Origin: Rothia sp. HMSC078H08
GTDB taxonomy: Bacteria; Actinomycetota; Actinomycetes; Actinomycetales; Micrococcaceae
NCBI RefSeq assembly: GCF_001808955.1
Contig: NZ_KV795256.1
Location: 76,935-123,246 of the forward strand
Length of the DNA: 46,312 nucleotides
Direction: 5' to 3'
Positions 20,457 to 41,569 of this stretch are shown here, one piece after another. Both the position numbers and the translations under genes were made by a program. Positions within the stretch are counted from its first letter, which is position 1, and each line of letters begins with the position of its first letter. The notes beneath the pieces are model-generated. The model did no database searches. It was given only the letters and a program-made list of their open reading frames with translations, and had not been told where the DNA came from.

Positions 20457-21524
20457 ATGTCTACTTTTTCCTCTCGTCGCGCCCTTTTTAAGGGTGCGGC
20501 AGCACTAACAGTCGCTGGCGCTTTGGGTGCGCACCATGCCGGCGAGCAGAGCGCCCAGGCTGCCACCTTGGACGTTATGACCACCCCGCTGACGTTCAAG
20601 ATTACCGAGGCGTCGTTTGATATTAGCGGCTTCAACCTCAGCTACGAGATTACAGGCCTGCAGGCTGTGCTTGATACTGGCCTGTACACCCCATACATTG
20701 AGGCTGGCTACTACACCAAGGAGAAGGGCTTCACGCAGTTCTACTTCTTCGCTCTTGAGCCGAAGAAGCGCATCGAGAATGACCCCTACGTGAGGCACCA
20801 CGTCATTTCTCGCGAGGTCACTGGTGGCCCGAAGGCGGACTACGGGATTCGCTTGTCTCTTCGTCCGCGCCGTGAGCAGTACACCATCCTGCGTACTATT
20901 GAGGTTCGCCCGACGATTAACACTGAGTTTGCGTGGGCACCTTTCATTGTGGATATTGATATGGATGGCGAGTACGCTCCCGATATCTACAGGTCATGTA
21001 AGGCAAAGGTTTTGCTGCTCGATAAGGAACGTTGCTTCTACCCTAAGCGTGCGGTGACCCGCAGCGATCTGATGGATGCAATCTACCGAGGCGCCCGCTC
21101 GCCGAAGGTTAAGCTTCCGGCGCGTTCCCCGTTCCCGGATGTGTCCCCGAAGGATGAGCGTTACTCGGCATACATTTGGGCATACCAGAATGGTCTGACC
21201 TCGGGTTGGTCTGACGGTAAGATGCACCCGGAGGCGGTGGCTAGCCGCGCTACGATGGCAGCGTTCTTCTACCGTTACTTTATGCTTACCCCCGGCCGTC
21301 GTCCTTCGTGGTTCCGTCCCACTACCCCGCAGGACATGAAGCCGGGTGCCCCGTTCTACACCGAGTCGGTGTGGCTGCACTCGTCGGTGAATATTGATAC
21401 GAGCTTTCACAATAAGAGCAAGGATTTCCGTCCGACCAAGATTGCTACCCGCGAGGAGCTGGCTCGTGTCCTGTCAATGCTGGACATGATTGACATCCCC
21501 AGTAGCCCTTATATCGATGCTTAA
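20457..21524 (+). CDS. Tat-exported SLH-domain protein (array gene 1)
   Basis: A 355-residue exported protein. The N-terminus SSRRALFKGAAALTVAGALG looks like a twin-arginine signal (S-R-R-A-L-F-K), ending near AQA at residue 35, so it may be exported folded. A middle region of about 150 residues (beta-rich, DISGFNLSYEITGLQ) resembles nothing I recognise. From about residue 196 there are SLH repeats: VTRSDLMDAIYRGARSPKV, then SPFPDVSPKDERYSAYIWA and GWSDGKMHPEAVASRATM, then a degenerate third repeat with ATREELARVL. It is the first gene of the ten-gene array and the most divergent copy. The start context GATGGGACAATGAT resembles those of the next genes. Its role is unknown; surface attachment is inferred from SLH. 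Confidence 0.78.
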   Translation: MSTFSSRRALFKGAAALTVAGALGAHHAGEQSAQAATLDVMTTPLTFKITEASFDISGFNLSYEITGLQAVLDTGLYTPYIEAGYYTKEKGFTQFYFFALEPKKRIENDPYVRHHVISREVTGGPKADYGIRLSLRPRREQYTILRTIEVRPTINTEFAWAPFIVDIDMDGEYAPDIYRSCKAKVLLLDKERCFYPKRAVTRSDLMDAIYRGARSPKVKLPARSPFPDVSPKDERYSAYIWAYQNGLTSGWSDGKMHPEAVASRATMAAFFYRYFMLTPGRRPSWFRPTTPQDMKPGAPFYTESVWLHSSVNIDTSFHNKSKDFRPTKIATREELARVLSMLDMIDIPSSPYIDA

Positions 21525-22034
21525 GATTTGGCAGGTGCCGTGAACCGGGCGGTTAACCTACATGTTTTAGCTTGGGTTGATCTCTGAGAACAGCAGCTGA
21601 AGATAGTGGCCTATGGCCTATAGAAGGGGCGGCGAGAGTTTTTCTCTCACCGCCCCTTTTTGTATGCCCCTTTTTTTCGTGTGCCCGTTTTCTGGTGCAG
21701 GCGCTGCTGGGTGCGGTTTTTAGTGCTGGTGATGCTTCCATTTTTGTCTCTCTATTGTGTGGTCTTTTTGGGGGTCGGGCTTTGTATAAAACCGGGGGCG
21801 TAATTTTCGAATTTTTTGTCTTATAACTCTTATTGGAATGTTTTTCTCGTGTTTTCATTGAATGTCTAAGACGCGGGTTGGTAGGCTGAAATTGCACTTC
21901 AGCATGCCGCCGCTACGGGTCCTCCACGATGTGGATTTGGCGTAGGCTCAGCGCGGTGGACTGTCACTCATTGATCCTCTCAACTTCTTTTCTCATTCAC
22001 CCTCATTCATGCAGAAAATTCAGATTGGATAATG
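21525..22034. other. Region between array genes 1 and 2
   Basis: 510 bases without a credible gene. It holds the terminator at 21624-21662, then an AT-rich stretch (21700-21860) where a promoter is likely but not assignable with confidence. A pyrimidine-rich leader (CTCAACTTCTTTTCTCATTC near 21978) follows, which recurs before genes 3-5. Confidence 0.45.
21624..21662 (+). terminator. Terminator of array gene 1
   Basis: AAGGGGCGGCGAGAG and CTCTCACCGCCCCTT form a 14-bp stem with one mismatch and a T5 loop, followed by TTTTTT. It lies about 100 bases beyond the stop codon. Confidence 0.88.
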
Positions 22035-24044
22035 ATGTCCTCATTCTTTAAGCCTGCCCGTGGCGCACGCCGAAAAGTTGCGGGCGCTTCCCTGGCGTTG
22101 GGTTTGACTCAGCTGTTGGGCGTGTCTCCGCTGTTGGCTTTGACGCCGGTGGCGGCCCAGCCGGCGCCCGCCTCCCCTGTGAACACGCAGCAGGCAACTA
22201 CTCAAGAAACACCGGCCCGTCAGATGCCTCAAGTGCAGGGTGGCGATCCCGCCTCTGAGCTGGAGAACATTGATTTGAAGGTCACGACAGGCCCCCTCAA
22301 CATTTCTCAGGGCGGTATCGTGTCGGTGACAACCTCTCCGTTGAGCGCCGAGTTTAGGCAGAAGTACACGTTCCACGAGCTCGCGTTGGTGGAACGTGGT
22401 TCCACGTACGTCCATGTCGGGCATCATAATTATGTTCCCCTCACTCAGTACGGTGGGATGGTCGAGGACCTCAAGCAGCAGGGTAATGTGCGAGAGAACC
22501 CGGATGGCAGCCTCACTTTCACGCTCGTTGTTCCCGCCCATATTGTTGAGGCTAAAGAGGGGACTCTCTTCGATACGGTACTGACGTATTACCCGTCGAA
22601 TGAGTATGCGCCGGATCCGTTGACGTGGTCGAATCGCCGGGTAGTCCGCACTCCTACCGATGTGGTGCAGGACGCTAAACCTACGAAGACCACCTACCTT
22701 TTCAGTTCATCTTCTATCGAGCACCCGGAAGAGGATACAACCCTGACGGTTGAGGGTTTCCATATCCTCTCGAAAAGCACCTTTTGGGGTCCTGAAGGCC
22801 CGGCGGTCCTGACCCTCTATGAGGTTGATCCGGTGACCGGGCAGGGTATTGGTTCGCCTGTGTTTATGCAGAATCTGAATTACACCAGGTGCAATCAGTA
22901 CTGTGATAGTTTCTTGAACGACCATTTCAGTACGGCTATCACGATTCCCGGGGGTACTCTCAAAGCGGGCAGGCTGTACAGGATTGGTTTCTACGGCGGT
23001 GGTTATCCTGGCCCGGGTTCCGAGGAATACCCTGGTGCATGGATGACCGATGTGGCAGATTTCATCCCGGTAGGTACCCCGGAGCAAGATGCAGCTCCCA
23101 CCAGCATCTACGTCTCGGGAGATAAGATGAGCCCTTATCGCGAGAATAATACTTTGAAGGTGACTGTTTTGGGTCTGCCGCCGCTGACCAAGGGCTACTA
23201 CCGTTTCTCCTTGCAGCCGATTGATGATCATGGCCGTCCGACCGGGCAGAAGTCTTGGGAGAAAGTGATTCCTGCCGAGAGCATTCAGAAGGGTCGTACG
23301 GCGCAGACGCTTTCTCTTCCCGGCTATGCCCTGAATTTTGAGGTGGCCTATAGGCTCTTTGTGGAGAAGGTAACCCCAAATCAGGGTGACACTGTCGATT
23401 CGGTTGAGCAGGTTGCTTCCAAAGACCTGGACTTGGATATCAGTCAGGAACGGGAAATGGAGGCTGCCAGGAAATGGATTGTGAACCGTCAAATTCTGCC
23501 AGGCTACCCCACTGATCGCGATTGGGAATCAGTGAACCGCCGTTCTGTGACGGTGGCACTGTATCGGTTAGCGGGCGCGCCGCAGGTTGAGCTTCCTGCA
23601 GTCAGCCCTTACACGGATATTACGCCGGATGACCCTGACTATACCGCGATTATTTGGGCTCGTCAGCGGGGTATTACGTTCGGTTGGGTTGATGGTCGCT
23701 TCCACCCGAATGAGCCGCTTTCGGACCGTTCCACGGCTGCGTTCCTCTACAGGTATCAGCGATCCCAGGGGGAGGTGTCGCCAAGCTTGCCGACGTCTCC
23801 TTCGCTACCGGACTCTACCCCGAAGAAACAGACGCATTTCCCGTATAGCTCTCATTGGCGGCTCTGGATCAGCCCGGAGACTGCTTTTTCACGTGAGTCT
23901 CGTTGGGCTATTGAGCGACGTATCTGGGGTTACATGCCTGATCAAGGTTACTTCTATGAGAGCTTTGAGGGCTTCAAGATGTCGTACCGTCAGGTGGCTG
24001 TGATGCTATACCGTATGGAGCACGGAGGCAGCCACCTCAGGTAA
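22035..24044 (+). CDS. Exported multi-domain SLH protein (array gene 2, subgroup A)
   Basis: 669 residues. A Sec signal peptide (LALGLTQLLGVSPLLALTPVAA) is followed by a Pro/Gln-rich spacer, then Ig-like beta domains: D1 (LKVTTGPLNISQGGIVSVTT, about residue 75), D2 (TLTVEGFHILS, about 237, ending IPGGTLKAGRLYRIGFYGG) and D3 (LKVTVLGLPPLTKGYYRFSL, about 373). From about 468 there are three SLH repeats. The second is canonical (SPYTDITPDDPDY, IIWARQRGITFGWVDGRFHP); the first and third are partly degenerate. It ends MEHGGSHLR. D2 has a CNQYC motif that may form a disulfide. I start at the second of two Met codons because paralogues begin MSSFF or MSSLPN at that point after a conserved GGATAA. 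No enzyme domain is seen. A surface structural or adhesive role is inferred. Confidence 0.82.
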   Translation: MSSFFKPARGARRKVAGASLALGLTQLLGVSPLLALTPVAAQPAPASPVNTQQATTQETPARQMPQVQGGDPASELENIDLKVTTGPLNISQGGIVSVTTSPLSAEFRQKYTFHELALVERGSTYVHVGHHNYVPLTQYGGMVEDLKQQGNVRENPDGSLTFTLVVPAHIVEAKEGTLFDTVLTYYPSNEYAPDPLTWSNRRVVRTPTDVVQDAKPTKTTYLFSSSSIEHPEEDTTLTVEGFHILSKSTFWGPEGPAVLTLYEVDPVTGQGIGSPVFMQNLNYTRCNQYCDSFLNDHFSTAITIPGGTLKAGRLYRIGFYGGGYPGPGSEEYPGAWMTDVADFIPVGTPEQDAAPTSIYVSGDKMSPYRENNTLKVTVLGLPPLTKGYYRFSLQPIDDHGRPTGQKSWEKVIPAESIQKGRTAQTLSLPGYALNFEVAYRLFVEKVTPNQGDTVDSVEQVASKDLDLDISQEREMEAARKWIVNRQILPGYPTDRDWESVNRRSVTVALYRLAGAPQVELPAVSPYTDITPDDPDYTAIIWARQRGITFGWVDGRFHPNEPLSDRSTAAFLYRYQRSQGEVSPSLPTSPSLPDSTPKKQTHFPYSSHWRLWISPETAFSRESRWAIERRIWGYMPDQGYFYESFEGFKMSYRQVAVMLYRMEHGGSHLR

Positions 24045-27580: not shown

Positions 27581-27759
27581 GTTGCTTCTGTTTTTCTTCC
27601 CTGCCTCTGCGAGTTCTTGTGCCCGACACCGGGCTTTACGGGGCTTCTTCTCCCCTGTTCGAGGTTTTTCTTCTCACGCTTTATCCGCTCAACTTCTTCA
27701 CTTGCTTCGTCTACTCGCTCGCTTCACTCACCGTACAGTTTTTTGTAGATGGGATAATG

Positions 27760-29805
27760 ATGTCTTCATTCTTCACACCACGAGGCGCCCGGTGCCGCTC
27801 AACTGCGCCGCGCCACCCGGCGAGCGCCCGCGCGCTCAGCCTGTCATTACTGCTGGGTTTGAGCCCGCTTGCCGGTATCACCCCGGCGGCACTCGCAACG
27901 CCGGCACAGGCTACACCTGAGCAGCAGGCGCAGCCGGCGCAGGCGACCCCCGCCTCCCCCGCTGCAACTCAAGAAGATGCTGACGAACCCACGTATTCGC
28001 TTCCGGAGGTAGATGAATCTCGCCATCCTGAAATGGAAGGGTTTACAGTCTCTCCCGAGACTCTCAACATTACTCGAGGAGGCACCGTCACGCTGACGAC
28101 GCCTCCGCTCAGTGCTGAATTCCGTCAGAATTACGAATTCTACGAATTTTCTCTGGTTGATCGCGGTTCTTCGTACTTCAAAGCCGCGCATGCCCGCATT
28201 GACGGATATGCCTACTTTGGCTACCTCTTTGACCGTGAGCCCAACCCGAAGCAGATGGTAGAAAACCCAGACGGGAGCTACACCTTCTTCCTCAATATTG
28301 GGCCGTACATTATTGAGGCTAATGAAGGCACTCTTTTCGACGTCATTTTGACGTACCACAAGAAGGGCCACCGGGAGGATTTTTGGCCGTCCGAATTCCG
28401 TTTTGTGGCGCGTGCACCTATTAATGTTGTGCAGGACCCTAAGCCGACTGAGACGACGTACATTTTCAGTGTGCCCGCAATTGATGACCCGTGGAAGGAT
28501 ACGACTCTGACGATTGAGGGGTTCCATATCCTTACGAGCGGTAGTCGAGAGGGCAAGGATGGCCCCGCGCTTCTGGCTTTTTATGAAGTCGACCCGAAGA
28601 CCGGAAAGATTGTAGGCGAACCAGAATTCACCACTCGGATTCCGTACCCGGCTTCCCGTAGTGGAGAGCGCGTTTATTTCCTGAATTGGCATTTTAAGAC
28701 GTCTATTACGATTCCTGGGGGAACGCTTAAGCCGGGTAAGGTCTATAAGATTGGTTTCTACGGTAAAGACCGTCCGGAGGATGAGAATTACCCCGGTGAG
28801 TTGCTGAATGATGTTGCAGATTTCATCCCGGTACGTTCGCTTAATAAGGAATCGGCTAGCCCTGAGATGTTTCTGAAGGCTACGACGGTGAGCCCTTATG
28901 ATGAGGAAAATATCCTTCAGGTACGCGCCGTCGGCTTGAAGAAGCAGCCTGGGGTCTCTTACCGTTTCTCGATGCAGCATGTTGACGCGCAGGGACTTCT
29001 GGCCAGTCAGAAAACGCTGGTGCAGGAGATTGCTGCTGAGAACATCCATGACGGCACGGTGGATGAGAAGCTGAACGTCCCCGGTGCGCCGCTGAATTAT
29101 GACGGCTCGTACAGGCTCTTCTTGGAAAAGGTGACTGCCGGCAAGGACGGTACGGTTGAGTCGGTTGAGCAGCTTACTTCGAAGGATCTACAGCTGCAGT
29201 TTACGAAGAATAAGGAGGTCAACGCCGCCTGGGCATGGTTTAAGCGCCGTCAGGTTCTTCCTGAGTTTTCTTCTTTGAGTGAGGGACGCGATATGACGCG
29301 CCGCGATGTGACGGTGGCATTGTACCGCCTGGCGGGTTCCCCGAAGGTTGAGCTTCCGGCGACGAGCCCTTATGGAGATATCGCTCCGGATGATCCGGAC
29401 TACGCCGCGTATATTTGGGCTCGTCAGAAGGGCATTACGTTCGGTTGGGCGGATGGGAATTTCCACCCGGAGATGAACATGCACAATTATTCGACGGCGG
29501 CGTTCCTGTATAGGTATCAGCGTTCGCGCGGTAAGGTGTCTCCCGGCTCGCCGACTGCCGCACCGCAGTCTCGTAACGGTAGCCTGCCGGGGTCGGATGA
29601 ATCTGAGGTGAGCGCTAACCCATGGGTTCTGGATTTGGAGGAGGGTAGCGCTTTCTGGCGTGAATCTCGGTGGGCTGTTCAGCAACGCATTTGGGGCTAC
29701 ACCGGGGATTGGGAACACGAACGCTTTTTCATGGAGACAACGTCCGTCTATGACTTGGCGTTGATGCTGTACCGCATGGAGCACGGCGGCAGCCACCTCA
29801 AGTAG
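27760..29805 (+). CDS. Exported multi-domain SLH protein (array gene 4, subgroup A)
   Basis: 681 residues. The signal peptide (SLSLLLGLSPLAGITPAALA) is nearly identical to that of gene 3, then a Gln/Pro/Ala spacer. D1 begins FTVSPETLNITRGGTVTLTT (about 96), D2 TLTIEGFHILTSGSREG (about 246, ending IPGGTLKPGKVYKIGFYG) and D3 LQVRAVGLKKQPGVSYRFSM (about 385). SLH repeats run from about 480 (MTRRDVTVALYRLAGSPKV; SPYGDIAPDDPDYAAYIWA; GWADGNFHPEMNMHNYSTAA), ending MEHGGSHLK. The frame is open 47 codons further upstream, but the ATG at 27760 with GATGGGATAATG ahead matches the other copies. It is followed by a hairpin region. It is probably monocistronic. Confidence 0.83.
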   Translation: MSSFFTPRGARCRSTAPRHPASARALSLSLLLGLSPLAGITPAALATPAQATPEQQAQPAQATPASPAATQEDADEPTYSLPEVDESRHPEMEGFTVSPETLNITRGGTVTLTTPPLSAEFRQNYEFYEFSLVDRGSSYFKAAHARIDGYAYFGYLFDREPNPKQMVENPDGSYTFFLNIGPYIIEANEGTLFDVILTYHKKGHREDFWPSEFRFVARAPINVVQDPKPTETTYIFSVPAIDDPWKDTTLTIEGFHILTSGSREGKDGPALLAFYEVDPKTGKIVGEPEFTTRIPYPASRSGERVYFLNWHFKTSITIPGGTLKPGKVYKIGFYGKDRPEDENYPGELLNDVADFIPVRSLNKESASPEMFLKATTVSPYDEENILQVRAVGLKKQPGVSYRFSMQHVDAQGLLASQKTLVQEIAAENIHDGTVDEKLNVPGAPLNYDGSYRLFLEKVTAGKDGTVESVEQLTSKDLQLQFTKNKEVNAAWAWFKRRQVLPEFSSLSEGRDMTRRDVTVALYRLAGSPKVELPATSPYGDIAPDDPDYAAYIWARQKGITFGWADGNFHPEMNMHNYSTAAFLYRYQRSRGKVSPGSPTAAPQSRNGSLPGSDESEVSANPWVLDLEEGSAFWRESRWAVQQRIWGYTGDWEHERFFMETTSVYDLALMLYRMEHGGSHLK

Positions 29806-30142: not shown

Positions 30143-32263
30143 GTGTCTTCTTTCTTCCGACCAACCACAGTTCAGGGCGCTAAGACGCCTGCCCAGAAAA
30201 TCCGCATTCAAAATGCCCAGAGTAAAAAGGCAATCAGCCTCTCCCTGTTGCTGGGCATGACCCCGGCGCTGGCGGTCACCCCTGCTGCGCATGCTGATGC
30301 GGCACAGACGAAACCCGCACAGGTGGAGCCTGCTCAAGCGGATCCGGCGAGCCCCGTCTCCCCTGCCGCATCGTTGCAGGCAACCCCCGTAGCTACCGTC
30401 CCCGGCGCCGCTGAGGCGGATGCCGCAACCGGTATTAGCGATGCTGACAAGATTGATTTGAAGGTCACCACCGGCACTCTCAATATTTCTCAGGGCGGCA
30501 CGGTGTCCGTGACGACTTCCCCGTTGACCCCCGAGTTCCGTAAGAAGTACAAGCTCTTCCAGTTCGGCCTCGTGAACCGTGGTACCGGTTACGAGTGGTC
30601 CCGTACCGGCGAGGCAACCCAGAATCCCCTGTACAGCGGCAGGGTCGATCATCTTCGAGAAGACGGTATCGTCCACGACAACCCGGACGGGAGCATCACC
30701 TTCACCTTCGAGGTCAAGAAGCAGACCATCCGGGCAACCCCTTCGCCTGCCCTTGACGTGGTGCTGACCTACTATCCGGCGGGCGAGCGCGAACCGAACG
30801 CCGAGGAGTATGAGGACCCCCGCCTTACTGCCCGCACTCCGCTCAGCCTGACTCAGGACCCTGAGCCGGATCATACTACTTATGTGTACAGCATGCCGGC
30901 GATTGATAATCCCTGGGTTGATACGCAGCTGACGATTGAGGGCTACCATATTCTCTCTAAGCAGCTTCTTGAGCCGGGGAGTGCCCCAGCATATCTGATG
31001 CTGTATGAGGTTGACCCCGCCACGGGTTTGATGGTGGGCAAGCCCGTTTTCACTCATGCAGTTCGTTATACGGATTGCGGTGAATACTATTGCTGGAGCT
31101 TCCTCAACAACTATTTCTCTGCGGATGTGACAATTCCTGCGGGTACTCTGCGACCGGGCAAGTCGTACATGATCGGCGTCTACAGCGGCTTCTTCCCGAA
31201 TCCGGATGAGGAGAAGGTACCCGGTAGCCTTTTGACGGATGTTGCCCCGTTTATTCCGGTGCGCTCGCCCAACTCGAACACCGAGGTGAAGGATGCCGCC
31301 CCGGTTCTGCGCGTTGAGCCGCAGCAGATGGACCAATATCGTTCTGATTCACCGCAGGTGAGCCCCTATTGGGAGAAGAACACGTTGCAGGTGCGTGCCG
31401 TGAACCTGCCAAAGCTCACTGAGGGCCATTACCGTTTCTCTATGCAGGCTACGGATGCTTCTGGCAATCTGACCGGCCAGAAGGCGCTGGAGCAGGATAT
31501 TGCGGCTGACCGCATCCAGAGCGGTTACACGGAGGCGACGCTCACTGTTCCCGGTGAGGCGCTGAATTATCAGGGCGGTTACAAGCTGGTGGTGGAGAAG
31601 GTTCTTCCCGGTCAGGGTGGTGCCGCGGATTCTGTACAGCAGGTTGTTTCTACTGACATTGATTTGGTGGTGAACGCGTTTGAGGAGCGGGAGGCTGCGA
31701 AGAGGTGGTACAAGGCTCAGCAGCTTCCCAAGTCAGAGCTCTATTATTCTGAGAATATGACGCGCCGTGATCTGACGGTGGCTCTCTATATGTTGGCGGG
31801 TTCGCCGAAGGTTGAGCTTCCGGAGACCAGCCCGTATCCGGATGTTCAGCCCAACGACCCGGACTACGCCGCATATATTTGGGCTCGCCAGAAGGGCATT
31901 ACGTTCGGTTGGATTGATGGTAGTTTCCACCCGGATGCGAAGGTTTACGATTCTTCGGCGGTGGCGTTCCTGTATAGGTATCAGAGGGCGCAGGGTAAGG
32001 TTCCTGCGGCGAAACCTCGTCCTGTTTCTTCGGCGTCAAAGAAGAGTAGCCTGCCGGGTGGTTCTTCTGAACGTGGGTGGAATACTGTTCTCGGCTGGCA
32101 TTACTCGTTCCATAAGGAGTCCCAGTGGGCGATTGATCAGCACATTTGGGGTTATATCAGCGAACAGTCTACCTATGAGGCGTATGGGCAGTCGTTTATT
32201 GGGCACACGGAACTCGCTACGATGCTGTACCGCATGGAGCACGGCGGCAGCCGTCTCACATAG
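30143..32263 (+). CDS. Exported multi-domain SLH protein (array gene 5, subgroup A)
   Basis: 706 residues, starting with GTG behind GATGGGATAACC. The signal (AISLSLLLGMTPALAVTPAAHA) follows a longer basic N-region. An Ala/Pro spacer is followed by D1 (LKVTTGTLNISQGGTVSVTT, about 110), D2 (QLTIEGYHILSKQLL, about 262, with a CGEYYC motif, ending IPAGTLRPGKSYMIGVYSG) and D3 (LQVRAVNLPKLTEGHYRFSM, about 414). SLH repeats occupy about 509 to the end (MTRRDLTVALYMLAGSPKV; SPYPDVQPNDPDYAAYIWA; GWIDGSFHPDAKVYDSSAV), ending MEHGGSRLT. It is the last of subgroup A. No catalytic motif is apparent. Confidence 0.83.
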   Translation: MSSFFRPTTVQGAKTPAQKIRIQNAQSKKAISLSLLLGMTPALAVTPAAHADAAQTKPAQVEPAQADPASPVSPAASLQATPVATVPGAAEADAATGISDADKIDLKVTTGTLNISQGGTVSVTTSPLTPEFRKKYKLFQFGLVNRGTGYEWSRTGEATQNPLYSGRVDHLREDGIVHDNPDGSITFTFEVKKQTIRATPSPALDVVLTYYPAGEREPNAEEYEDPRLTARTPLSLTQDPEPDHTTYVYSMPAIDNPWVDTQLTIEGYHILSKQLLEPGSAPAYLMLYEVDPATGLMVGKPVFTHAVRYTDCGEYYCWSFLNNYFSADVTIPAGTLRPGKSYMIGVYSGFFPNPDEEKVPGSLLTDVAPFIPVRSPNSNTEVKDAAPVLRVEPQQMDQYRSDSPQVSPYWEKNTLQVRAVNLPKLTEGHYRFSMQATDASGNLTGQKALEQDIAADRIQSGYTEATLTVPGEALNYQGGYKLVVEKVLPGQGGAADSVQQVVSTDIDLVVNAFEEREAAKRWYKAQQLPKSELYYSENMTRRDLTVALYMLAGSPKVELPETSPYPDVQPNDPDYAAYIWARQKGITFGWIDGSFHPDAKVYDSSAVAFLYRYQRAQGKVPAAKPRPVSSASKKSSLPGGSSERGWNTVLGWHYSFHKESQWAIDQHIWGYISEQSTYEAYGQSFIGHTELATMLYRMEHGGSRLT

Positions 32264-32682
32264 TGTCTCGCCGTGGCGTTAGCTATTTTGGTTGGCTTTC
32301 GTCAAATAGGCGACTTTATGGCTCTGTTTATGTGCCACTTTTATTGTGGGTGACTTTTATGTTGCCTTGCCCACCGCATTGTGAATATTCTCAACCTGCA
32401 GAGGTTGCATAGGTGCGAATTTTTCGAATGCGGTGGGTTTTTTACGCTTTCTTTTTTGTACAGTGACCAGTGTTTGTGCTTATCAGCACACTATTTAGGC
32501 ATATTTTCCACGTCATGCACATACTTTTTAAAGCTATACTTCACCTTAAGACATGCGATAAAACACACAGGCATTTTTCGCACTGATGACCTTTCAGGTT
32601 CCAGCACGTCTTAACTATTTGCTACGGTGTTTATGCGCACCACACTCGATGCGTGACACCGATAAAAACTGATTGGATAACA
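32264..32682. other. Region between array genes 5 and 6
   Basis: 419 bases with no credible gene. A strong terminator lies at 32370-32443. After it comes an AT-rich stretch (32450-32620) in which TATACT (about 32540) is a possible -10 for gene 6, without a convincing -35. Confidence 0.45.
32370..32443 (+). terminator. Terminator of array gene 5
   Basis: CCCACCGCATT (32370-32380) pairs with AATGCGGTGGG (32427-32437), followed by TTTTTT. The loop carries a smaller hairpin (CAACCTGCAGAGGTTG). Confidence 0.88.
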
Positions 32683-34515
32683 ATGTCCTCACTTCCCAAC
32701 CACATGCGCTTTGCGCTACCCAAAAATGTGGCCAAGAGCAGCTGCGCCATCACCCTGGCTGGCGCTATGCTCTTGCCTCTCTCCCCCGCGTTTGCCGCAC
32801 CTGCTACTCCGGTAGCAACCCAGGCTGTTGAACAGGGCGAGGCTCAGGGTGCTCAGCGTCTGCAGGTTACCTCCGGCACTTTTGATATTCTCAAGGGCGG
32901 CAACGTGACGGTTAGCGGCTCCGGTTTCTCCAAGGACTTCGTTCAGGGCAAGTCGTTCCGCCTGTACGTTGTTCCGAAGGGTGAAAGCGTCGCTTTCCCG
33001 CCGCACCACCCGCGTGATTACCCCTTCTATGTTCAGGATGTTCCCGCCTCCGCCTTTGCGGCTGACGGCACCGTGAACCTGACCGCTTCTATCGGCGCTA
33101 ACTATCTGGAGGCCAATGGCTCGTCCTTCGATGTTGTGCTCGGTTACCGCGATGACGCTGAAGACGGCTGGATTCCCGCGGATGAGGTTCGTACTGAGCT
33201 GAAGGTCGCGGATGTTCCCACCGTTGATTCCCCTACCCTGTCGTACAGCGCTTCGTCGGTGAATGCTTCTGAGAACGCTAAGGTCACTGTGAACGGTGCT
33301 GGCTTCCAGAACATTTCGTACAACGGTAGCGAGTCGCTGATTGTTGCGGTTCGTGCGGTTGATCCGGCGACCGGCAAGGCGACCGGCCCCGCGCTGGCTC
33401 AGTCGGAGGCTAAGTTCACCTCCTACTCTGCGTTCTTCGGCCAGTACATGGGTTACACCAACGGCCGCTTCTCGACTGTTCTGGACATCCCGGCGGGTAC
33501 CCTGAAGTCCGGTAGCTCCTACGTTGTGCAGACTTTCGAGTTCAATGTTCCGGAAGATAACGATGAGGCGAACAACCAGGCACTGAGCACTCAGGCGTTT
33601 GTTCCGGTGAACGGCGAGAACGCTAAGACTGCTTCGCCTTCGGTGTCCCTGAGCACTGACAAGGTTGATCTGAGCTCTTCGACCACTATCCGTGTAAAGG
33701 GTAAGGACTTCAAGGTTCCGGCTGGCGCTACCGTGAACGTTCTGTTCTCTGAGGCTGAGGCTGACGGCAACCCGACCGGTGAGGCTCTGGATAGCATCAC
33801 TCTGAGCGCTGACCGCGTGGCAACCGGCGCGTTTGAGACGACCGTTAACGTTGACGGCACCAAGCTGGACGCTGATGGCCACTACGCTATTTTCGTGACC
33901 GTGAACTACGCCGATGGTGACAGCGAGCGCATCGCGGCTGATTACCTGACTTTGACCGGTGAGTCTGCGAACAAGAAGGCTCGTGAGCGTTTCGCTGATG
34001 TTCCGGCTGCTCACGCGAACCACAAGGCTGTTCTGTGGGCTGCTGATCAGAAGCTGATTGATTCTCGTGAGAAGGATTGGTTCGGCGTTAATGATGATGC
34101 GACCCGCGGTGAGCTGACTGTTGCACTGTACCGTATGGCTGGTTCCCCGAAGGTTACCCTGCCGGCTACTAGCCCGTACCCGGATGTGAAGACCGATGAC
34201 CCGAACTACACTGCGTACATTTGGGCTCGTCAGAAGGGCATTACTTTCGGCTGGTCTGATGGTAAGTTCCACGCGAATGCGTCTGTTTCTAACGCTACTG
34301 TTGCGGCGTTCCTGTACCGTTTCGATGGTAAGAAGCCGGTTGTTGCGACTGAGGCGCCGTACACCGATGTAAAGGTCGGCTCTGCGTTCTACCGTGAGAT
34401 TACTTGGGCTAAGCAGCAGAAGCTACAGGTTTTCCCGGGTTCTGAGTACCACCCGTCTGCGCTGGTGAGCCGTGGTGAGCTGGCTGGTTTCTTGATGAAC
34501 TACAAGGTCCGCTAG
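32683..34515 (+). CDS. Exported SLH protein with three Ig-like domains (array gene 6)
   Basis: 610 residues; the clearest copy of the family. Signal peptide SCAITLAGAMLLPLSPAFAA. Three Ig-like domains: LQVTSGTFDILKGGNVTVSG (about 60), PTLSYSASSVNASENAKVTVNG (about 185) and PSVSLSTDKVDLSSSTTIRVKG (about 322). Three SLH repeats follow from about 433, and all have the expected layout: RFADVPAAHANHKAVLWA...ATRGEL, SPYPDVKTDDPNYTAYIWA...SNATVA, and PYTDVKVGSAFYREITWA...VSRGEL. The start is ATG 32683 (MSSLPN) with GATTGGATAACA ahead; ten upstream codons in frame are not coding. Its signal start links it to genes 8-10, its leader to genes 2-5. Codon choice is narrow (GCT, GGT, CGT, CTG, AAG), as in well-expressed genes. 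A major surface protein is a fair guess. Confidence 0.86.
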   Translation: MSSLPNHMRFALPKNVAKSSCAITLAGAMLLPLSPAFAAPATPVATQAVEQGEAQGAQRLQVTSGTFDILKGGNVTVSGSGFSKDFVQGKSFRLYVVPKGESVAFPPHHPRDYPFYVQDVPASAFAADGTVNLTASIGANYLEANGSSFDVVLGYRDDAEDGWIPADEVRTELKVADVPTVDSPTLSYSASSVNASENAKVTVNGAGFQNISYNGSESLIVAVRAVDPATGKATGPALAQSEAKFTSYSAFFGQYMGYTNGRFSTVLDIPAGTLKSGSSYVVQTFEFNVPEDNDEANNQALSTQAFVPVNGENAKTASPSVSLSTDKVDLSSSTTIRVKGKDFKVPAGATVNVLFSEAEADGNPTGEALDSITLSADRVATGAFETTVNVDGTKLDADGHYAIFVTVNYADGDSERIAADYLTLTGESANKKARERFADVPAAHANHKAVLWAADQKLIDSREKDWFGVNDDATRGELTVALYRMAGSPKVTLPATSPYPDVKTDDPNYTAYIWARQKGITFGWSDGKFHANASVSNATVAAFLYRFDGKKPVVATEAPYTDVKVGSAFYREITWAKQQKLQVFPGSEYHPSALVSRGELAGFLMNYKVR

Positions 34516-34973: not shown

Positions 34974-35858
34974 ATGTCCCAGAATTTTAAGCAGTCGACT
35001 GATACTGCCCATAATTCTTCTGCACCTCTGCTGGCACCGGAGGGCACCCCCGAGGCTTCTTCTCAGGCTGAGTCGAAGAAGCGTAAGCGCCGCCGTATTG
35101 AGCTGGCTGTTGGCGCTGTGGCGTTGGCGGGTGTTTTGTATCTGCCGTTCTCACCTCTTTTCTCTTTTTATGATTCGTCGGAGGCGCGTCTTTCTTCGGC
35201 GGATACTGCTGCGCCGGTAGCTGCTTCGGTGCCTGCTACCTCCTCTCCTCTGGCGTCGAGTTCTTCGACTCAGGGCCCGAAGATTCTGCGTCCGTCCGTG
35301 ACTGCGCCGGATGCGAACACTATTTTTGCTGATGCTCCCGAGGACTCTGCGTACTATGCGGGTATCCGTTGGGCTGTTCGTACTGAGACTATGCTTCCGG
35401 TTTCTGAGGACCATTTTGGTGCTGAGGATCCGGTGACTCGTGGCGAGCTGATCACCATGTTCTATAAGCTGGCGGGTTCGCCGGCAGTGACCCGTCCGGA
35501 GCATTCGCCGTATGCAGATGTTGATGAGTCTGACCCGAACTATGATGCGTACCTGTGGGCGCGTCAGGAGCGTATTACGTCCGGTTGGGTTGATGGTAAG
35601 TTCCATGCGGAGGCGCGTCTGTCGAATGCTTCTGCGGCGGCTTTGCTGTACCGTGCTGATGGTGCGCAGAAGATTCAGATGTCGGGTTCTTCGCCGTTTA
35701 GCGATGTTTCGTCTGTGACTCCGTTCTACCGTCAGATTGTGTGGGCGTCTCGTCGTGGTGTGTCTACGGTGTCTGAGGGTAATGCTTTTGAGCCGACGGC
35801 TCAGACGTCTCGTGGTCGTGTTGCGATGATGATGTACCTGTACTTCCGCACTTCCTAG
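34974..35858 (+). CDS. Membrane-anchored minimal SLH protein (array gene 7)
   Basis: 294 residues, much shorter than its neighbours. The first 43 residues are polar and end in a very basic run (KKRKRRR). A single membrane segment follows (ELAVGAVALAGVLYLPFSPLFSF, about 44-66), with no cleavage site I can see. A Ser/Ala/Pro linker leads to three SLH repeats from about residue 115 (TIFADAPEDSAYYAGIRWA...VTRGELI; SPYADVDESDPNYDAYLWA...GWVDGKFHAEARLSNAS; SPFSDVSSVTPFYRQIVWA...TSRGRVA). So the SLH part is held at the membrane outer face rather than released, which would tie the membrane to the wall polymer or to the same ligand. There are no Ig-like domains. The start follows GAGGATTT. Confidence 0.82.
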   Translation: MSQNFKQSTDTAHNSSAPLLAPEGTPEASSQAESKKRKRRRIELAVGAVALAGVLYLPFSPLFSFYDSSEARLSSADTAAPVAASVPATSSPLASSSSTQGPKILRPSVTAPDANTIFADAPEDSAYYAGIRWAVRTETMLPVSEDHFGAEDPVTRGELITMFYKLAGSPAVTRPEHSPYADVDESDPNYDAYLWARQERITSGWVDGKFHAEARLSNASAAALLYRADGAQKIQMSGSSPFSDVSSVTPFYRQIVWASRRGVSTVSEGNAFEPTAQTSRGRVAMMMYLYFRTS

Positions 35859-36204: not shown

Positions 36205-37740
36205 ATGTCCCCGCTTCCGAACTCTAAGTCTTCTTTCCTCCGTGCGGCGCAGGGATGCGGCGCACTGGTGCTGGCTGGTGCGATGGTTCTGCCGATGACT
36301 CCGGCACTCGCCCAGGATGCGGCACCTGCCGCTAATGCACCGATGGCAAATGCTGTGACCCCCAAGCCTGCAGCTCAGGACGCTGCGGCACAGCCGACGT
36401 ACTCCACCGACTATGACACCATTTTTTACACCGGTGAGGGCGGCACCGTGACCCTGAAGGGTACCGGTTTCACCAAGGAATGGCGTGAGCAGCACGGCAC
36501 CGTTGTCTTCTACATTGCTGCTACGAAGGATCGCCCCGGTAATGCTGAGCCTTCCACCTCGATGCTTCGTTTTGAAGAGGGTAAGGACTTCACCATTGCT
36601 GATGACGGTACTTTTGAGGCAAAGCTGACCGTCAAGGCTAAGGCGCTGGAGAGTTTCTACACTCCCATCGATTATTTCCCGGGTATCACCCTGGATGAGG
36701 TGCGTTACGAGACGGGTATTTTGACCGAGGCTAAGGGTCAGCCGCAGTCGAGCATTGAGGATATTTGGGCTCGCAAGAACGTTATCGCCCACCACCCGAT
36801 GTACACCCGCGCTTACCATCCGCAGGTCCTGGCACCTAAGTGGAAGTATGATGCCCTGAAGGACACTACGAAGGATCAGGAGCTGCTGATTCAGGGTGAG
36901 GGTTTCGTTGGGGAGGAACTGCCTGGCCGTGAGGGTGCCATGTACGTGATTCGTGAGAAGGGCACCGGCACCCCCGTCCTGGCGATGAGCGATATGAAGT
37001 CCTACTATGAAGGTCCCGATGGCGTAACCCGCCTGGAGGGAGGCACTCTTTACCGCACCATCAAGCTCCCCGCAAACACCCTGGATCCGTCTAAGCAGTA
37101 CGTCATTGAGGCGTGGAGCGACTACGACTACGACCTCACCAAGAAGGACAGGCCCCTCATCACCCCGATTGTGGGTTTGGCGCCGGAGCACCGCGGTGTT
37201 CTTATGGCTCACCAGGATCTGAAGTTTGAGGGTGTTCCGGACTTCACGGATGCTACTGTGCCCAAGGGAGAATACAAGACCCTGACTTCGAAGCTCACCT
37301 ACCAGGAGCAACAGCAGCGTGCTACCCGCGGCGAGTTGACTGCGGCACTGTACGCTCAGGCTGGTAGCCCCAAGGTGAACCTCCCGGCAGTCTCCCCCTG
37401 GCCGGATGTGAAGACCACCGACCCGAACTACACCGCTTACGTGTGGGCTCGTCAGAAGGGTATTACTTTCGGCTGGTCTGATGGTAAGTTCCACGCGGAT
37501 GCCGGTATTTCGAACGCTACGGTTGCGGCGTTCACCTACCGTGCAGCGGGTTCCCCGGCGGTATCAGGTGTGTCTTCCTTTACCGATGTGAAGCCGAATT
37601 CTGCGTTCTACCGTGAGATTCTGTGGTCCACTCAGCAGTATGTCATTAATCCGGATTTCGGCTCTTTTAATGCGACGGACCTGGTGAATCGTGGTCAGTT
37701 GGAGCAGATGCTGTTCAATTTCCAGAACCGCGCTAAGTAA
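36205..37740 (+). CDS. Exported SLH protein (array gene 8, subgroup B)
   Basis: 511 residues. Signal peptide: SSFLRAAQGCGALVLAGAMV then LPMTPALAQ, nearly identical in genes 8-10. D1 is GGTVTLKGTGFTKEWREQHG (about 74) and D2 about 225-330 (ELLIQGEGFVGEELPG; LPANTLDPSKQYVIEAWSDY). The SLH part starts near 365 with an incomplete first repeat (only RATRGELTAALYAQAGSPKV). The second is canonical (SPWPDVKTTDPNYTAYVWA, GWSDGKFHADAGISNATVA), and the third reads FTDVKPNSAFYREILWSTQ...VNRGQLEQML. It ends FQNRAK. The start is ATG 36205 behind AAGGATGATGT. It is about 100 bases downstream of a shared promoter and hairpin leader. Surface attachment is inferred; no enzyme motif. Confidence 0.84.
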   Translation: MSPLPNSKSSFLRAAQGCGALVLAGAMVLPMTPALAQDAAPAANAPMANAVTPKPAAQDAAAQPTYSTDYDTIFYTGEGGTVTLKGTGFTKEWREQHGTVVFYIAATKDRPGNAEPSTSMLRFEEGKDFTIADDGTFEAKLTVKAKALESFYTPIDYFPGITLDEVRYETGILTEAKGQPQSSIEDIWARKNVIAHHPMYTRAYHPQVLAPKWKYDALKDTTKDQELLIQGEGFVGEELPGREGAMYVIREKGTGTPVLAMSDMKSYYEGPDGVTRLEGGTLYRTIKLPANTLDPSKQYVIEAWSDYDYDLTKKDRPLITPIVGLAPEHRGVLMAHQDLKFEGVPDFTDATVPKGEYKTLTSKLTYQEQQQRATRGELTAALYAQAGSPKVNLPAVSPWPDVKTTDPNYTAYVWARQKGITFGWSDGKFHADAGISNATVAAFTYRAAGSPAVSGVSSFTDVKPNSAFYREILWSTQQYVINPDFGSFNATDLVNRGQLEQMLFNFQNRAK

Positions 37741-37901: not shown

Positions 37902-37909
37902 GAAAATGT

Positions 37910-37926: not shown

Positions 37927-38028
37927 CTTCCAACCATTTTTCTCATAGGGCGCGCAGATTCAACGGCGAATTCCCTACCCGCCGTTGAGCCCGCAGAGCC
38001 CTGCGAGAAACAACTTTAAGGATGTGTT

Positions 38029-39600
38029 ATGTCCTCGCTTCCGAACTCTAAGTCTTCTTTCCTCCGCGCTGCTCAGGGTTGCGGCGCATTGGCGTTGGCT
38101 GGTGCTATGGTTCTGCCGATGACCCCGGCACTGGCTCAGAATGCGGCTCCTGCCGCTGATGCCGCTGTTGCTGCCGCTACCCCTCAGGCAGCTAACCAGG
38201 TCGCTGCGGCTACCCCGACCCTTGAGGTTTCCATCCCTGACGGTTACAAGTACGACGGCGTGAACCCCTCCCTCGTCACGACTGAGGGCGGTACCATCCA
38301 TGTGAAGGGTGCGGGTTACACCAAGGAGTGGCGTGCTCAGCACGGTACCGTGGCGCTGTACATTGCTCCCGCGAACTACGCGCCCTCCGGCTACGAGATT
38401 CCGACTTCGAAGATGCTGCGCTTCGTGGAGGGTCAGGACTTCACCATTACCGATGACGGCACTTTTGAGGCTGATCTGAAGGTTGAGGCGTACAAGCTTG
38501 CTGCCTACTACTTCATCGATGATGACAACTTCCACGACCCGACCGGCGGCACCAAGTACGATGTCCTCTACGAAATTCGCGTGGTTGCTGAACAGAAGGA
38601 TCAGAAGCCGCTGACCGCTCAGGAGCTGTGGACCAGCAAGAACGTGGTGAGCACCCAGGTACTGAATACTATGGGTGAGAAGCCGGCGCCGTTCGCACCG
38701 CGCCTGGGTTACAACGCTGTGACTGACCCCATAAAATCACAGGATCTGAACGTTGGTGGCCAGGGGTTTAACGGCGATATTCACTCCGTTAGGGGCGTTC
38801 AGCTCGTGGTTCGTGAGAAGGGCTCGAACACCCCGGTTCTGGCAACCAGCGACATTATCGAGTTTGACCACCCCACCCAGTCTTCGGCGTACCGTGATGG
38901 CAACCTGAACGGTACCGTGAATCTTCCGGCAAACACTCTGAACGCTTCGAAGAAGTACGTGATTGAGGTCTGGGCTAACGACGGTTACGGCAATAACGGT
39001 AAGCTGATCGCACCGGTCGTGGGCAGGTCCACCAAGGGCCGCGGTACCCTACTCGCGTGGCAGGACCTGGACCTGAACGGCACGAACGGTTACAGGGAGG
39101 CGAACCTGCCCAACGCTCAGGATCCCAAGAAGGATGACAACCAGAAGCCCGATCCTTCCGATGAGAAGCTGGAGACCCTCGCTACCCGCGGTGAGCTCGC
39201 AGCTGCCCTGTACATTCAGGCGGGCACCCCCGAGGTGAAGCTGCCTGAAACTTCTCCCTGGCCGGATGTGAAGACCACCGACCCGAACTTCCCCGCGTAC
39301 GTGTGGGCTCGTCAGAAGGGTATTACCTTCGGCTGGTCGGACGGCAAGTTCCATGCTGATGCAGGCATTTCGAACGCTACCGTTGCGGCGTTCACCTACC
39401 GTGCGGCTGGTTCGCCCGCGGTTAAGGGCGACTCCCCGTACAGTGATGTGGCTCCCGGTTCGGCGTTCTACCGTGAGATTCTGTGGGCTCAGCAGAACAA
39501 GGTGGTGCTGAACGCTAACGGCGCTTTCGATGCTCAGTACATGGTGACTCATGGTGAGTTGGAGACTCTGATTGAGGCGTTCCAGGCTCGCGCTAAGTAA
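38029..39600 (+). CDS. Exported SLH protein (array gene 9, subgroup B)
   Basis: 523 residues. It shares the MSSLPNSKSSFLRAAQGCG signal start with gene 8 and is cleaved near ALAQ. D1 (TTEGGTIHVKGAGYTKEWRA, about 83) has a YFIDDDNFHDPTGGTKYDVL loop of its own. D2 contains LNVGGQGFNGDIHSVRGVQL and LPANTLNASKKYVIEVWAND. Before the SLH part is an Asp/Lys-rich hinge (DPKKDDNQKPDPSDEKLETL). SLH repeats from about 380 read ATRGELAAALYIQAGTPEV; SPWPDVKTTDPNFPAYVWA with GWSDGKFHADAGISNATVA; and PYSDVAPGSAFYREILWAQ with VTHGELETLI, where His replaces the usual Arg. It ends FQARAK. Start ATG 38029 behind AAGGATGTGTT. Codons are of the well-expressed kind. Confidence 0.84.
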   Translation: MSSLPNSKSSFLRAAQGCGALALAGAMVLPMTPALAQNAAPAADAAVAAATPQAANQVAAATPTLEVSIPDGYKYDGVNPSLVTTEGGTIHVKGAGYTKEWRAQHGTVALYIAPANYAPSGYEIPTSKMLRFVEGQDFTITDDGTFEADLKVEAYKLAAYYFIDDDNFHDPTGGTKYDVLYEIRVVAEQKDQKPLTAQELWTSKNVVSTQVLNTMGEKPAPFAPRLGYNAVTDPIKSQDLNVGGQGFNGDIHSVRGVQLVVREKGSNTPVLATSDIIEFDHPTQSSAYRDGNLNGTVNLPANTLNASKKYVIEVWANDGYGNNGKLIAPVVGRSTKGRGTLLAWQDLDLNGTNGYREANLPNAQDPKKDDNQKPDPSDEKLETLATRGELAAALYIQAGTPEVKLPETSPWPDVKTTDPNFPAYVWARQKGITFGWSDGKFHADAGISNATVAAFTYRAAGSPAVKGDSPYSDVAPGSAFYREILWAQQNKVVLNANGAFDAQYMVTHGELETLIEAFQARAK

Positions 39601-39676
39601 GGTCGTTTAGCCCGCCCGCATCCCCCTCGGGTTTTACCTTGAGGGCGCGTGCGGTGCATCGGATAACTCTCTGGTT

Positions 39677-39727: not shown

Positions 39728-39782
39728 ACAGCTACCGCTGTATGAGATTTCTCGAAACCATAAAGTATTCCTTGAGTGTTTC

Positions 39783-39811
39783 CTGACAATCGTTCAACGC
39801 TTTGATAGGGT
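39783..39811 (+). promoter_or_regulatory. Promoter of array gene 10
   Basis: CTGACA (39783-39788), 17 bases, TAGGGT (39806-39811), with TTGAGTGTTT just ahead as before gene 8. Confidence 0.78.
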
Positions 39812-39817
39812 GAGGAT

Positions 39818-39838
39818 ATCCCCGAAACCGAGGGGGAT
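39818..39838 (+). promoter_or_regulatory. Conserved 5' leader hairpin of array gene 10
   Basis: ATCCCC and GGGGAT pair around a GAAACCGAG loop. The stem bases differ from genes 8 and 9, yet pairing is kept. Confidence 0.55.
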
Positions 39839-39940
39839 TTTCAACCACTTTTCTCATCGGGCGTGCGCAGATTCTGCGACCGATTCCCAACCTGCCGGTA
39901 AGCTCGCGCAGCCCCGGAGAAATGACCCTAAGGATGTCTT

Positions 39941-41569
39941 ATGTCCTCACTTCCGAACTCTAAGTCTTCATTCCTCCGCGCGGCTCGGAATTGTAGCGCG
40001 CTCGCACTGGCGGGCGTGATGGTCCTGCCGCTGACCCCGGCGTCAGCCCAGGACGCAGCGCCCACCGCAAATGTGCCCGTTGCTAACGCGCCGGTTACCA
40101 ATACCCCCACCCCTGCAACTCAGGACGTTGCGGATGAGCCGTCTTTCACCGTTGTCTATGAGGATTACTACTACCAGGACGGCCGTGACGTCTTCATGCA
40201 AGAGGGCGACGGCCTGTACACCGGTGAGGACAGCAAAATTACGGTTCTGGGCAGCGGATTCACCAAGGAGTGGCGCGAGCAGCACGGCAAGGTTGTCATC
40301 TACATCGCGCCCGAGGAGAACGTCCCCTATAACGCTCTGCAGATTACCGACACTCTTCTGCGGTTTGAAGAGGGCAAGGACTTCACCATTGACGATGACG
40401 GCACCTTTGTCGCCCCGCTGAAGGTTGAAGCTAATACTTTGCCGAGTTACTACACTCTCACGGAGTATTTCCCGGATATGACTCTGGACAAGGTGCGTTA
40501 CGAGGTTGGCATCCTCGCCGAGCCCGAGGGCCAGCCGCAGTCAACCGTTCAGGATATCTGGGCTCGCAAGAACGTTGTGACGCATCACGGTCTGAGCACC
40601 AATGATTATCACTTCGACACCTTCGCACCTAAGTTGAAATACGACGCTTTGAAGGACACCACAAAGGATCAGGAGCTGCTGATTCAGGGTCAGGGCTTCG
40701 TAGGGACTGACATCCCCGGCGTTGAGGGCATGATGTACGTCATTCGCGAGAAGGGCACGGGTTCCCCCGTCCTGGTTATGAGCGAGATGAAGCGTTACGT
40801 CCACGGTGATGATGAATACGAGACGGGCCTGGAGGGAGGCTTCGCTTTCGTCAATCTCAAGATTCCCGCGAACACGCTGGATCCGTCCAAGCAGTACGTC
40901 ATTGAGGCGTGGAGCGACTACGGTTACCCCAGCAAGACGGATAAGACTCTCATTACCCCGATGGTGGGTTTTGCCCCGGAGCACCGCGGCGTTCTTTTGG
41001 CGCACCAGGATTTGAAGTTTGAGGGTGTCCAGCGGTTCACGAATGCTTACGTACCCGTAGAGGAACGTATGTACTTTTCGACATCGCTGAACGACGAGGA
41101 ACAGAAGCAGCCTGCCACCCGCGGTGAGCTGGTTTCCTCCCTTTATGAGATGAAGGGCAGCCCCAAGGTGGACCTTCCTGAAGTCTCCCCGTGGCCGGAT
41201 GTGAAGACGGACGATCCGAACTACGCCGCCTACATTTGGGCTCGTGAAAAGGGTGTTACCTTCGGCGGACCTGACGGAAAGTTCCACGCGGAGGACGGTC
41301 TCACGAATGCAACCGTTGCCGCAATGATTTACCGTGCGTCTGGTTCACCGGAAGTATCGGGTGTTTCATCCTTCCCGGATGTTACGCCGGATTCCGCGTT
41401 CTACCGTGAGATTCTGTGGGCTACCCAGCAGAATGTTATTACTCCCGAGACCGGCATGTTTGAACCGAATCATGCTGTGACCCGCATTGAATTGGACTGG
41501 ATGTTGTTCTATTACCGGCATCGCGTGATGAACCCTATCACTACTGGCCTGTATCGCATTGCTAACTAA
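39941..41569 (+). CDS. Exported SLH protein (array gene 10, subgroup B)
   Basis: 542 residues, closest to gene 8. The signal is SSFLRAARNCSALALAGVMV then LPLTPASAQ. A Pro/Ala/Asn/Thr spacer is followed by D1 (DSKITVLGSGFTKEWREQHG, about 102) and D2 (ELLIQGQGFVGTDIPG; IPANTLDPSKQYVIEAWSDY, about 245-350). SLH repeats from about 385: ATRGELVSSLYEMKGSPKV (incomplete first); SPWPDVKTDDPNYAAYIWA with the altered AREKGVTFGGPDGKFHAEDG, where Gly-Pro replaces the usual Trp-Ser; and FPDVTPDSAFYREILWATQ with VTRIELDWML. The tail MNPITTGLYRIAN is unlike genes 8 and 9. Start ATG 39941 behind AAGGATGTCTT. It closes the array; the next gene is on the other strand. Confidence 0.84.
   Translation: MSSLPNSKSSFLRAARNCSALALAGVMVLPLTPASAQDAAPTANVPVANAPVTNTPTPATQDVADEPSFTVVYEDYYYQDGRDVFMQEGDGLYTGEDSKITVLGSGFTKEWREQHGKVVIYIAPEENVPYNALQITDTLLRFEEGKDFTIDDDGTFVAPLKVEANTLPSYYTLTEYFPDMTLDKVRYEVGILAEPEGQPQSTVQDIWARKNVVTHHGLSTNDYHFDTFAPKLKYDALKDTTKDQELLIQGQGFVGTDIPGVEGMMYVIREKGTGSPVLVMSEMKRYVHGDDEYETGLEGGFAFVNLKIPANTLDPSKQYVIEAWSDYGYPSKTDKTLITPMVGFAPEHRGVLLAHQDLKFEGVQRFTNAYVPVEERMYFSTSLNDEEQKQPATRGELVSSLYEMKGSPKVDLPEVSPWPDVKTDDPNYAAYIWAREKGVTFGGPDGKFHAEDGLTNATVAAMIYRASGSPEVSGVSSFPDVTPDSAFYREILWATQQNVITPETGMFEPNHAVTRIELDWMLFYYRHRVMNPITTGLYRIAN

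Follow-up and report, generated by a model that had tools for sequence, protein, structure and literature searches.

Ten consecutive genes of Rothia sp. HMSC078H08 encode proteins with C-terminal surface layer homology (SLH) repeats and form one array at positions 20457-41569 of the window, i.e., the whole stretch of 46,312 nucleotides that was analysed. The locus is real and of a known kind; its special features are an SLH array with a single conserved pocket, a pair of glycosyltransferase-2 (GT2) and pyruvyltransferase genes, and the common loss of these elements in one isolate. The array proteins are probably held at the wall on a pyruvylated glycan stemming from the GT2-pyruvyltransferase pair, where they would display a variable repertoire of immunoglobulin-like (Ig-like) domains. 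We infer this, including that every protein is exported and binds the wall, that the ligand is pyruvylated and that the proteins serve adhesion, from the directly observed genes, their position and copy-number variation, one predicted SLH fold, the residue pattern of the pocket and the co-occurrence, adjacency and co-loss with ligand enzymes. A cassette of about 6-13 paralogous genes, reduced in R. aeria and others to a smaller number of more distantly related genes, would supply proteins which are exported and then held non-covalently on the wall by their C-terminal SLH trimer. The sole conserved pocket, composed of Arg43 of repeat 1 and the Gly29 loop of repeat 2, would grip a wall glycan that is acidic and pyruvylated and to whose synthesis the GT2 and pyruvyltransferase genes, located at another site of the genome, probably contribute. 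Pointing outward, the Ig-like N-terminal parts would form a repertoire, most simply of adhesins or of matrix proteins suited to the oral niche, which may change via gain and loss of members and allele exchange between strains.

Architecture and site of the SLH array

The window belongs to the Rothia mucilaginosa group. With 95% protein identity in YaaA, R. mucilaginosa 141_RMUC and Rothia sp. RSM386 are its closest named relatives, and the nearest genome available for comparison, G001, has 63% of the sampled 31-letter words in common with it. The listing of open reading frames (ORFs) of the window gives ten plus-strand ORFs in a row:

20457-21524, plus strand: SLH gene 1, 355 aa, start read by eye as Tat-like (SRRALFK), SLH at the C-terminus (37.2 bits)
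22032-24044, plus strand: SLH gene 2, 670 aa, family A, SLH 31.6 bits
24276-27518, plus strand: SLH gene 3, 1080 aa, family A, doubled N-terminal unit, SLH not reported by Pfam
27757-29805, plus strand: SLH gene 4, family A, SLH 15.8 bits (under cut-off); the ATG at 27757 is preferred as start over the longer ORF from 27619
30143-32263, plus strand: SLH gene 5, 706 aa, family A, SLH 14.5 bits (under cut-off)
32653-34515, plus strand: SLH gene 6, 620 aa, Ig-like beta-sandwiches and SLH trimer (structure prediction)
34974-35858, plus strand: SLH gene 7, 294 aa, a membrane helix (by eye) with three SLH repeats behind it, SLH 46.3 bits in three stretches
36205-37740, plus strand: SLH gene 8, 511 aa, family B, Ig-like domains and SLH (predicted model), SLH 25.3 bits
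38029-39600, plus strand: SLH gene 9, 523 aa, family B, SLH 19.0 bits (under cut-off)
39941-41569, plus strand: SLH gene 10, 542 aa, family B, SLH 36.1 bits

The nine gaps between the genes measure 231-507 bases each and wholly contain no ORF of more than 77 aa on the plus or 114 aa on the minus strand. ORFs antisense to the array genes overlap them and are expected at the G+C of the window, and no tRNA or Rfam gene was found among the ten genes. Export starts were read by eye, like the helix of gene 7: genes other than 1 and 7 show Sec-like starts, and the TAT_signal of gene 1 reaches 10.6 bits, under the Pfam cut-off. The Pfam SLH model (PF00395) passes its curated cut-off in genes 1, 2, 6, 7, 8 and 10, stays under it in genes 4, 5 and 9 and is not reported for gene 3; the repeats are visible and aligned in register in all ten, gene 3 included. 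Gene 3 aligns to gene 2 with 52% identity, SLH part included, and a second alignment to gene 2, at 30%, is obtained with the first part of gene 3. A profile made from the ten array proteins hits all ten, by construction.

These results bear out the initial annotation in its description of ten consecutive plus-strand SLH genes with nothing between them, since the coordinates were confirmed and the gaps hold no larger ORFs. The same applies to the SLH repeats in every product, to the almost constant second repeat, which is seen in the alignment, and to the absence of enzyme motifs, as no enzyme domain exceeded a Pfam or NCBIfam cut-off in the ten proteins. Its statement that the N-terminal parts differ is true of families A and B relative to each other and of genes 1 and 7, which have only the SLH part in common with other members; within family A (genes 2-5, 45-52% identity) and family B (genes 8-10, 47-62%) the genes are paralogous, with gene 6 being distantly related to genes 2-5 (about 30%). 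Beta-rich domains, which had been claimed for nine of the ten, were predicted as Ig-like in both members modelled (genes 6 and 8), and gene 7 features only a helix before its SLH part. By its sequence, gene 7 (34974-35858) seems to encode an SLH protein that is anchored in the membrane and has no further domains, and it could form a link between membrane and wall polymer.

The Foldseek lists for the gene 6 and gene 8 models were filled by Ig folds, and the VIA list for the gene 8 model left its SLH part uncovered. Structure comparison predicted an SLH-trimer fold for one array member, the one tested to a result. Searches of PDB sequences returned no match for gene 7 and, for the family B profile, an SLH protein as top match that was not significant (E 0.015). 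At E 0.001 or better, 807 homologous 90%-clusters were counted for gene 8, of which 120 were listed, compared to just 35 for gene 6. Both counts are rough, with about 8000 candidates scored each and some matches covering the SLH part alone; on this basis, the diversity of family B seems to exceed that of gene 6 by far. Some database relatives of the array proteins are oddly named as peptidase, gluconolactonase or heterodisulfide reductase. Others are called S-layer homology domain-containing protein [Rothia mucilaginosa], so single array proteins have already been annotated as SLH proteins. For four gene 8 relatives named peptidase, heterodisulfide reductase or gluconolactonase by their source (P0098, P0099, P0133, P0140), precomputed Pfam results show only SLH or nothing.

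The array is inserted between yaaA and nif3, with the RNase P RNA gene on the left:

18713-19118, minus strand: rnpB (RNase P RNA), left flank, RF00010 297.1 bits
19290-20081, plus strand: yaaA, left border of the insertion, start according to the YaaA model, with the ORF already open from 18951
41700-42632, minus strand: nif3-like gene, right border of the insertion

Both border genes lie on one contig in 31 of 35 Rothia genomes, where the two are separated by no more than 106 bases in 16 genomes, by 394-1349 bases in eight and by more in seven. The interval was opened in seven genomes and the window and holds 13 SLH genes in G010, 12 in G001, ten in the window, six in G044 (R. mucilaginosa 141_RMUC), three in G002 (R. 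aeria AP017895), one each in G011 and G016 and none in G021 (RSM386). Two further long intervals, in G020 (6.3 kb) and G025 (2.9 kb), belong to genomes without any SLH match. As the array recurs at the same site in related genomes with 0-13 SLH genes, it is not due to chance. The earlier suggestion of a dedicated surface-protein locus is strengthened by this conserved position and copy-number range, by the one-to-one relatives and by the SLH-trimer fold of one member. In the R. aeria genome, yaaA and the pyruvyltransferase gene each match in two separate frames, likely a sequencing error.

The predicted ligand pocket and the pyruvyltransferase

In SpaA of Paenibacillus alvei, the pocket beside repeat n is described, in the available part of the source, as built from three repeats in circular order, to which repeat n contributes Gly29, repeat n+1 Trp13 and repeat n+2 Arg43; the primary pocket is formed by Arg43 of SLH1, Gly29 of SLH2 and Trp13 of SLH3 (PMC6081394). 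This numbering was carried over to the array proteins by counting and not read from a structure of their own with bound ligand. Both Arg43 of SLH1 and Gly29 of SLH2 occur in 41/41 array proteins from four genomes, a figure which means that all carry the repeat-2 motif, because its pattern itself demands Gly; the alignment shows 40 in register. Arg43 of SLH2 occurs in only five of the 41, Gly at the Gly29 place of SLH1 in none (counted back from Arg43, ungapped), and a TR-like motif in the SLH3 tail in 29, by a loose pattern that also picks up chance matches. Phe or Tyr stands next to the Trp13 place of SLH3 in all 41, with the register read by eye and the placement of Trp13 being uncertain. 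From the missing Gly29 of SLH1 and the rare Arg43 of SLH2, the SLH1-side pocket appears broken in all and the SLH3-side pocket in 36 of the 41 proteins. Judged by these residues, the key pair of a SpaA-type primary pocket is kept in all array members, and the near constancy of the second repeat would be explained by its forming the wall of this pocket.

The initial annotation had also raised the question of whether the SLH domains bind a pyruvylated wall polymer in this actinobacterium. Among 396 genomes of the order, 87 feature SLH and 250 the pyruvyltransferase family PF04230; both surveys had equal size and draw and were taken as the same 396 genomes. PF04230 was found in 75/87 genomes with and 175/309 without SLH (Fisher p 1.6e-7, odds ratio 4.8, uncorrected for kinship) and, within the genus Rothia, in 26/27 and 5/8 genomes, respectively (p 0.03, likewise uncorrected, three genomes being less than 90% complete). 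Moreover, SLH and PF04230 matches lie at most 1 kb apart in at least eight of the 35 Rothia genomes (G009, G013, G015, G023, G045, G046, G048, G049) and in at least seven genomes outside the genus (G035, G064, G079, G093, G130, G162, G255), and 5-7 kb apart in nine Rothia genomes (G003, G005, G006, G008, G015, G022, G040, G042, G043). The PF04230 genes within 1 kb of SLH in the eight Rothia genomes represent a second type (373-425 aa where the frame was read); two of them and one from G018 were scanned and gave no meaningful CsaB score.

The pyruvyltransferase of G001 comprises 591 aa (PF04230, 76.0 bits), and its gene follows 3 bases after a GT2 gene (PF00535, 65.4 bits); upstream lies a gene for a PHO4-family transporter. 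In G006 and G008, the two further members examined for this, a GT2 gene likewise stands before the pyruvyltransferase gene, and in G006 the PHO4-family gene does, too. Compared with PDB sequences, the G001 protein had no match up to E 10.

Further evidence comes from RSM386, since described as the nasal species R. similimucilaginosa with an ANIm of 91.9-92% to R. mucilaginosa, according to the available text of its description (PMC12811043). The genome scan of RSM386 gave no PF04230 match. Beside the PHO4-family gene, about 2.3 kb are missing at the conserved place, and the start of GT2 is fused to the end of the pyruvyltransferase in one 178-aa frame, in which Pfam detects only a GT2 piece under cut-off. 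The sole array remnant between yaaA and nif3 is a stretch of 101 bases matching the end of gene 9 (window 39519-39619, 88% identity). Likewise, only short remnants, the longest of 293 bases, are left beside purA, where G001 has three SLH-bearing subtilases. Owing to the remnants at all three sites, these are losses and not original absences. The assembly was made from short reads with SPAdes, as stated in the accessible part of PMC12811043, and the scars lie within contigs. The array scar (L089 9796-10170, a 0.4-kb interval) additionally contains a G/C run of 12. The available text of the species description makes no mention of SLH proteins or their loss (PMC12811043).

Several observations weigh against the favoured explanation of proteins displayed on a pyruvylated wall glycan. 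The pyruvyltransferase was read in the nearest genome and not in that of the window strain, has no SLH gene beside it in G001 and falls short of the CsaB equivalog TIGR03609 (75.1 bits against a cut-off of 213.1). TagA/WecG (PF03808) exceeded its cut-off in none of ten Rothia genomes, with one lower match in G008 and 7/14 controls being positive. The co-occurrence, tested without correction for kinship, is imperfect in both directions, as 12/87 SLH-bearing genomes of the order lack PF04230 and 5/8 Rothia genomes without SLH possess it; PF04230 has other uses, too. Of the two SLH matches in RSM386, one belongs to the remnant beside purA and the other to an 834-aa SLH protein which survived the losses. 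Besides, R. similimucilaginosa colonies stick to agar, as reported in the available part of PMC12811043, so the array is not required for agar adherence if the species lacks it as RSM386 does.

The low CsaB score, the undetected TagA and the PF04230 genes in Rothia genomes without SLH would also fit an SLH domain that binds the wall glycan by a feature other than pyruvate. The pyruvyltransferase would then serve a capsule or other polymer, and the losses in RSM386 (genome listed with 2.0 Mb, compared to 2.3 Mb for G001) would reflect a general surface reduction in the nasal niche. This explanation is rather improbable; it is opposed by the close neighbourhood of SLH and pyruvyltransferase genes in Rothia and other genera, and by the fact that the pocket conserved in the array is the one holding pyruvate in SpaA. 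For the favoured pyruvylated glycan, co-occurrence, adjacency and co-loss provide indirect support, and the nearest genome has a pyruvyltransferase of family PF04230, although under the CsaB equivalog cut-off. In P. alvei, CsaB works on ManNAc that is added by TagA, as given in the available text of PMC6030368. Accordingly, the low CsaB score and the undetected TagA/WecG suggest that the Rothia ligand may be different from the TagA-CsaB ligand. Other pyruvylated wall sugars are known from actinobacteria, with their function not being known according to the accessible part of the source (PMC6801904).

Repertoire, exchange and selection

In the tree, the 41 array proteins from four genomes (window, G001, G010 and G044) form 14 groups (counted by hand), never with two members per genome; the window is represented in ten. 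Recent tandem duplication is consequently not supported as the main source of the copy-number differences among the window, G001 and G010, which should mostly stem from loss or retention of old members. In G044, family A is wholly absent, and gain and loss are not distinguishable in the comparison of this genome with the others. Gene 1 is identical to its counterpart in G001 (100% in the protein, nucleotide identity 1.000), whereas the adjoining yaaA shows a dS of 0.116. Gene 4 has a dS of 0.086 to G010 compared to 0.348 to G001, and yaaA and nif3 are closer to G001 (0.116 and 0.174) than to G010 (0.255 and 0.242). These discordant histories are a mark of exchange between strains.

The dN/dS ratios of the array genes range from 0.14 to 0.47, with the ratio of the identical gene 1 being undefined against G001 and the partner of gene 5 in G010 not being its counterpart. 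For the flanking genes, 0.04-0.16 was obtained against G001 in seven of eight cases, the eighth, pdf, giving 0.30 with hardly any changes; the comparison with G010 was possible for yaaA (0.06) and nif3 (0.05) alone. The data do not show positive selection on the array, as dN/dS is below 1 in every comparison. The earlier view of a diversifying system is accordingly upheld for gene content, allele exchange and a raised dN, but not for positive selection. Phase variation by slippage is likewise not supported for the window, which contains no G/C run of at least 8, no A/T run of at least 9 and no short-unit repeat at the script thresholds. Single G/C runs of 8-9 occur in the array gaps of G001 and G010. 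Consensus promoters and terminators showed no excess over shuffles.

The Ig-like domains, the variation and the loss in an isolate of another niche suggest that the array mediates adhesion. Coat, adhesin and scaffold are not separable by sequence, with a regular one-protein S-layer being least likely. Crystalline coats normally consist of one or two abundant proteins. The three fullest arrays encode 10-13 different proteins of 293-1083 aa, each window gene has its own intergenic region and one isolate lacks any array, all of which makes a regular S-layer in place of separate adhesins a very remote prospect. Another variant of the favoured adhesin repertoire, with which it overlaps, is that the repertoire mainly binds other oral bacteria or matrix polysaccharide and not host cells. 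This variant is rather unlikely. Against it stands that Z values in the observed range are common for such folds according to the note of the tool, and its ligands are conjectural. R. mucilaginosa ranked first in abundance among the species of one large saliva cohort, according to the available part of that study (PMC12979206), so a variable wall-displayed protein set is a candidate for its hold on this niche.

Related SLH systems and neighbouring genes

The array resembles the systems of SpaA (P. alvei) and Sap (Bacillus anthracis) in the SLH-trimer fold predicted for one member, in the Arg43-Gly29 pocket and in the pyruvyltransferase of the nearest genome. It differs from Firmicutes SLH systems in that all members keep the key pair at only one of three pockets, that repeat 1 of genes 8-10 lacks its first half (by eye) and that the Rothia pyruvyltransferase, under the CsaB cut-off, is paired with a GT2 gene, with TagA not found. 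SlpB of Propionibacterium freudenreichii and its relatives also carry SLH and belong to the surface layer of another actinobacterium. A role in adhesion to intestinal cells has been reported for SlpB (PMC5462946). Among the papers listed, no tandem array with copy-number variation was noticed for these proteins, which by description sets them apart from the Rothia array.

Within Rothia, the wall-anchoring module of the array is of the same type as in the three subtilases beside purA in G001 (L044, G001:C1:1036619-1049372). Unlike the array proteins, these possess Peptidase_S8 and PA-type domains and three Pfam-recognised SLH each, and are encoded at a separate locus. Cell-associated gluten-degrading activity has been reported for R. 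mucilaginosa and R. aeria, as far as the available text of PMC7761627 goes. Taken together with the SLH subtilases of G001, this suggests that SLH anchoring works in Rothia, and these subtilases are a possible source of the activity; the findings hence bear on the location of cell-associated gluten-degrading subtilisins. A link to ABO-associated Rothia was dropped, since the source names no SLH gene.

More tentatively, and with more doubt than confidence, Rothia and perhaps many actinobacteria may possess an SLH display system of their own, with a GT2-pyruvyltransferase pair in place of TagA-CsaB, a different pyruvylated ligand, a single-pocket SLH trimer and a recombining Ig-like repertoire. 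The whole system of array, SLH subtilases and ligand enzymes would have been taken apart in at least one R. similimucilaginosa isolate, this being the nasal sister species of the oral R. mucilaginosa. The co-loss in RSM386 represents a natural knock-out, through which the question of the wall ligand becomes testable by means of two named sister species that can both be cultivated. A single comparison between them can cover the array, the SLH subtilases and the ligand enzymes, offering a direct test of SLH wall binding. The open-licence literature searched contained no report on SLH proteins in Rothia, with papers beyond it not being covered.

Just past nif3, at 43377-46238, three tandem DUF6318 (PF19843) genes with lipoprotein-like starts form a second tandem family of probably exported proteins, and similar stretches are also found in G001.

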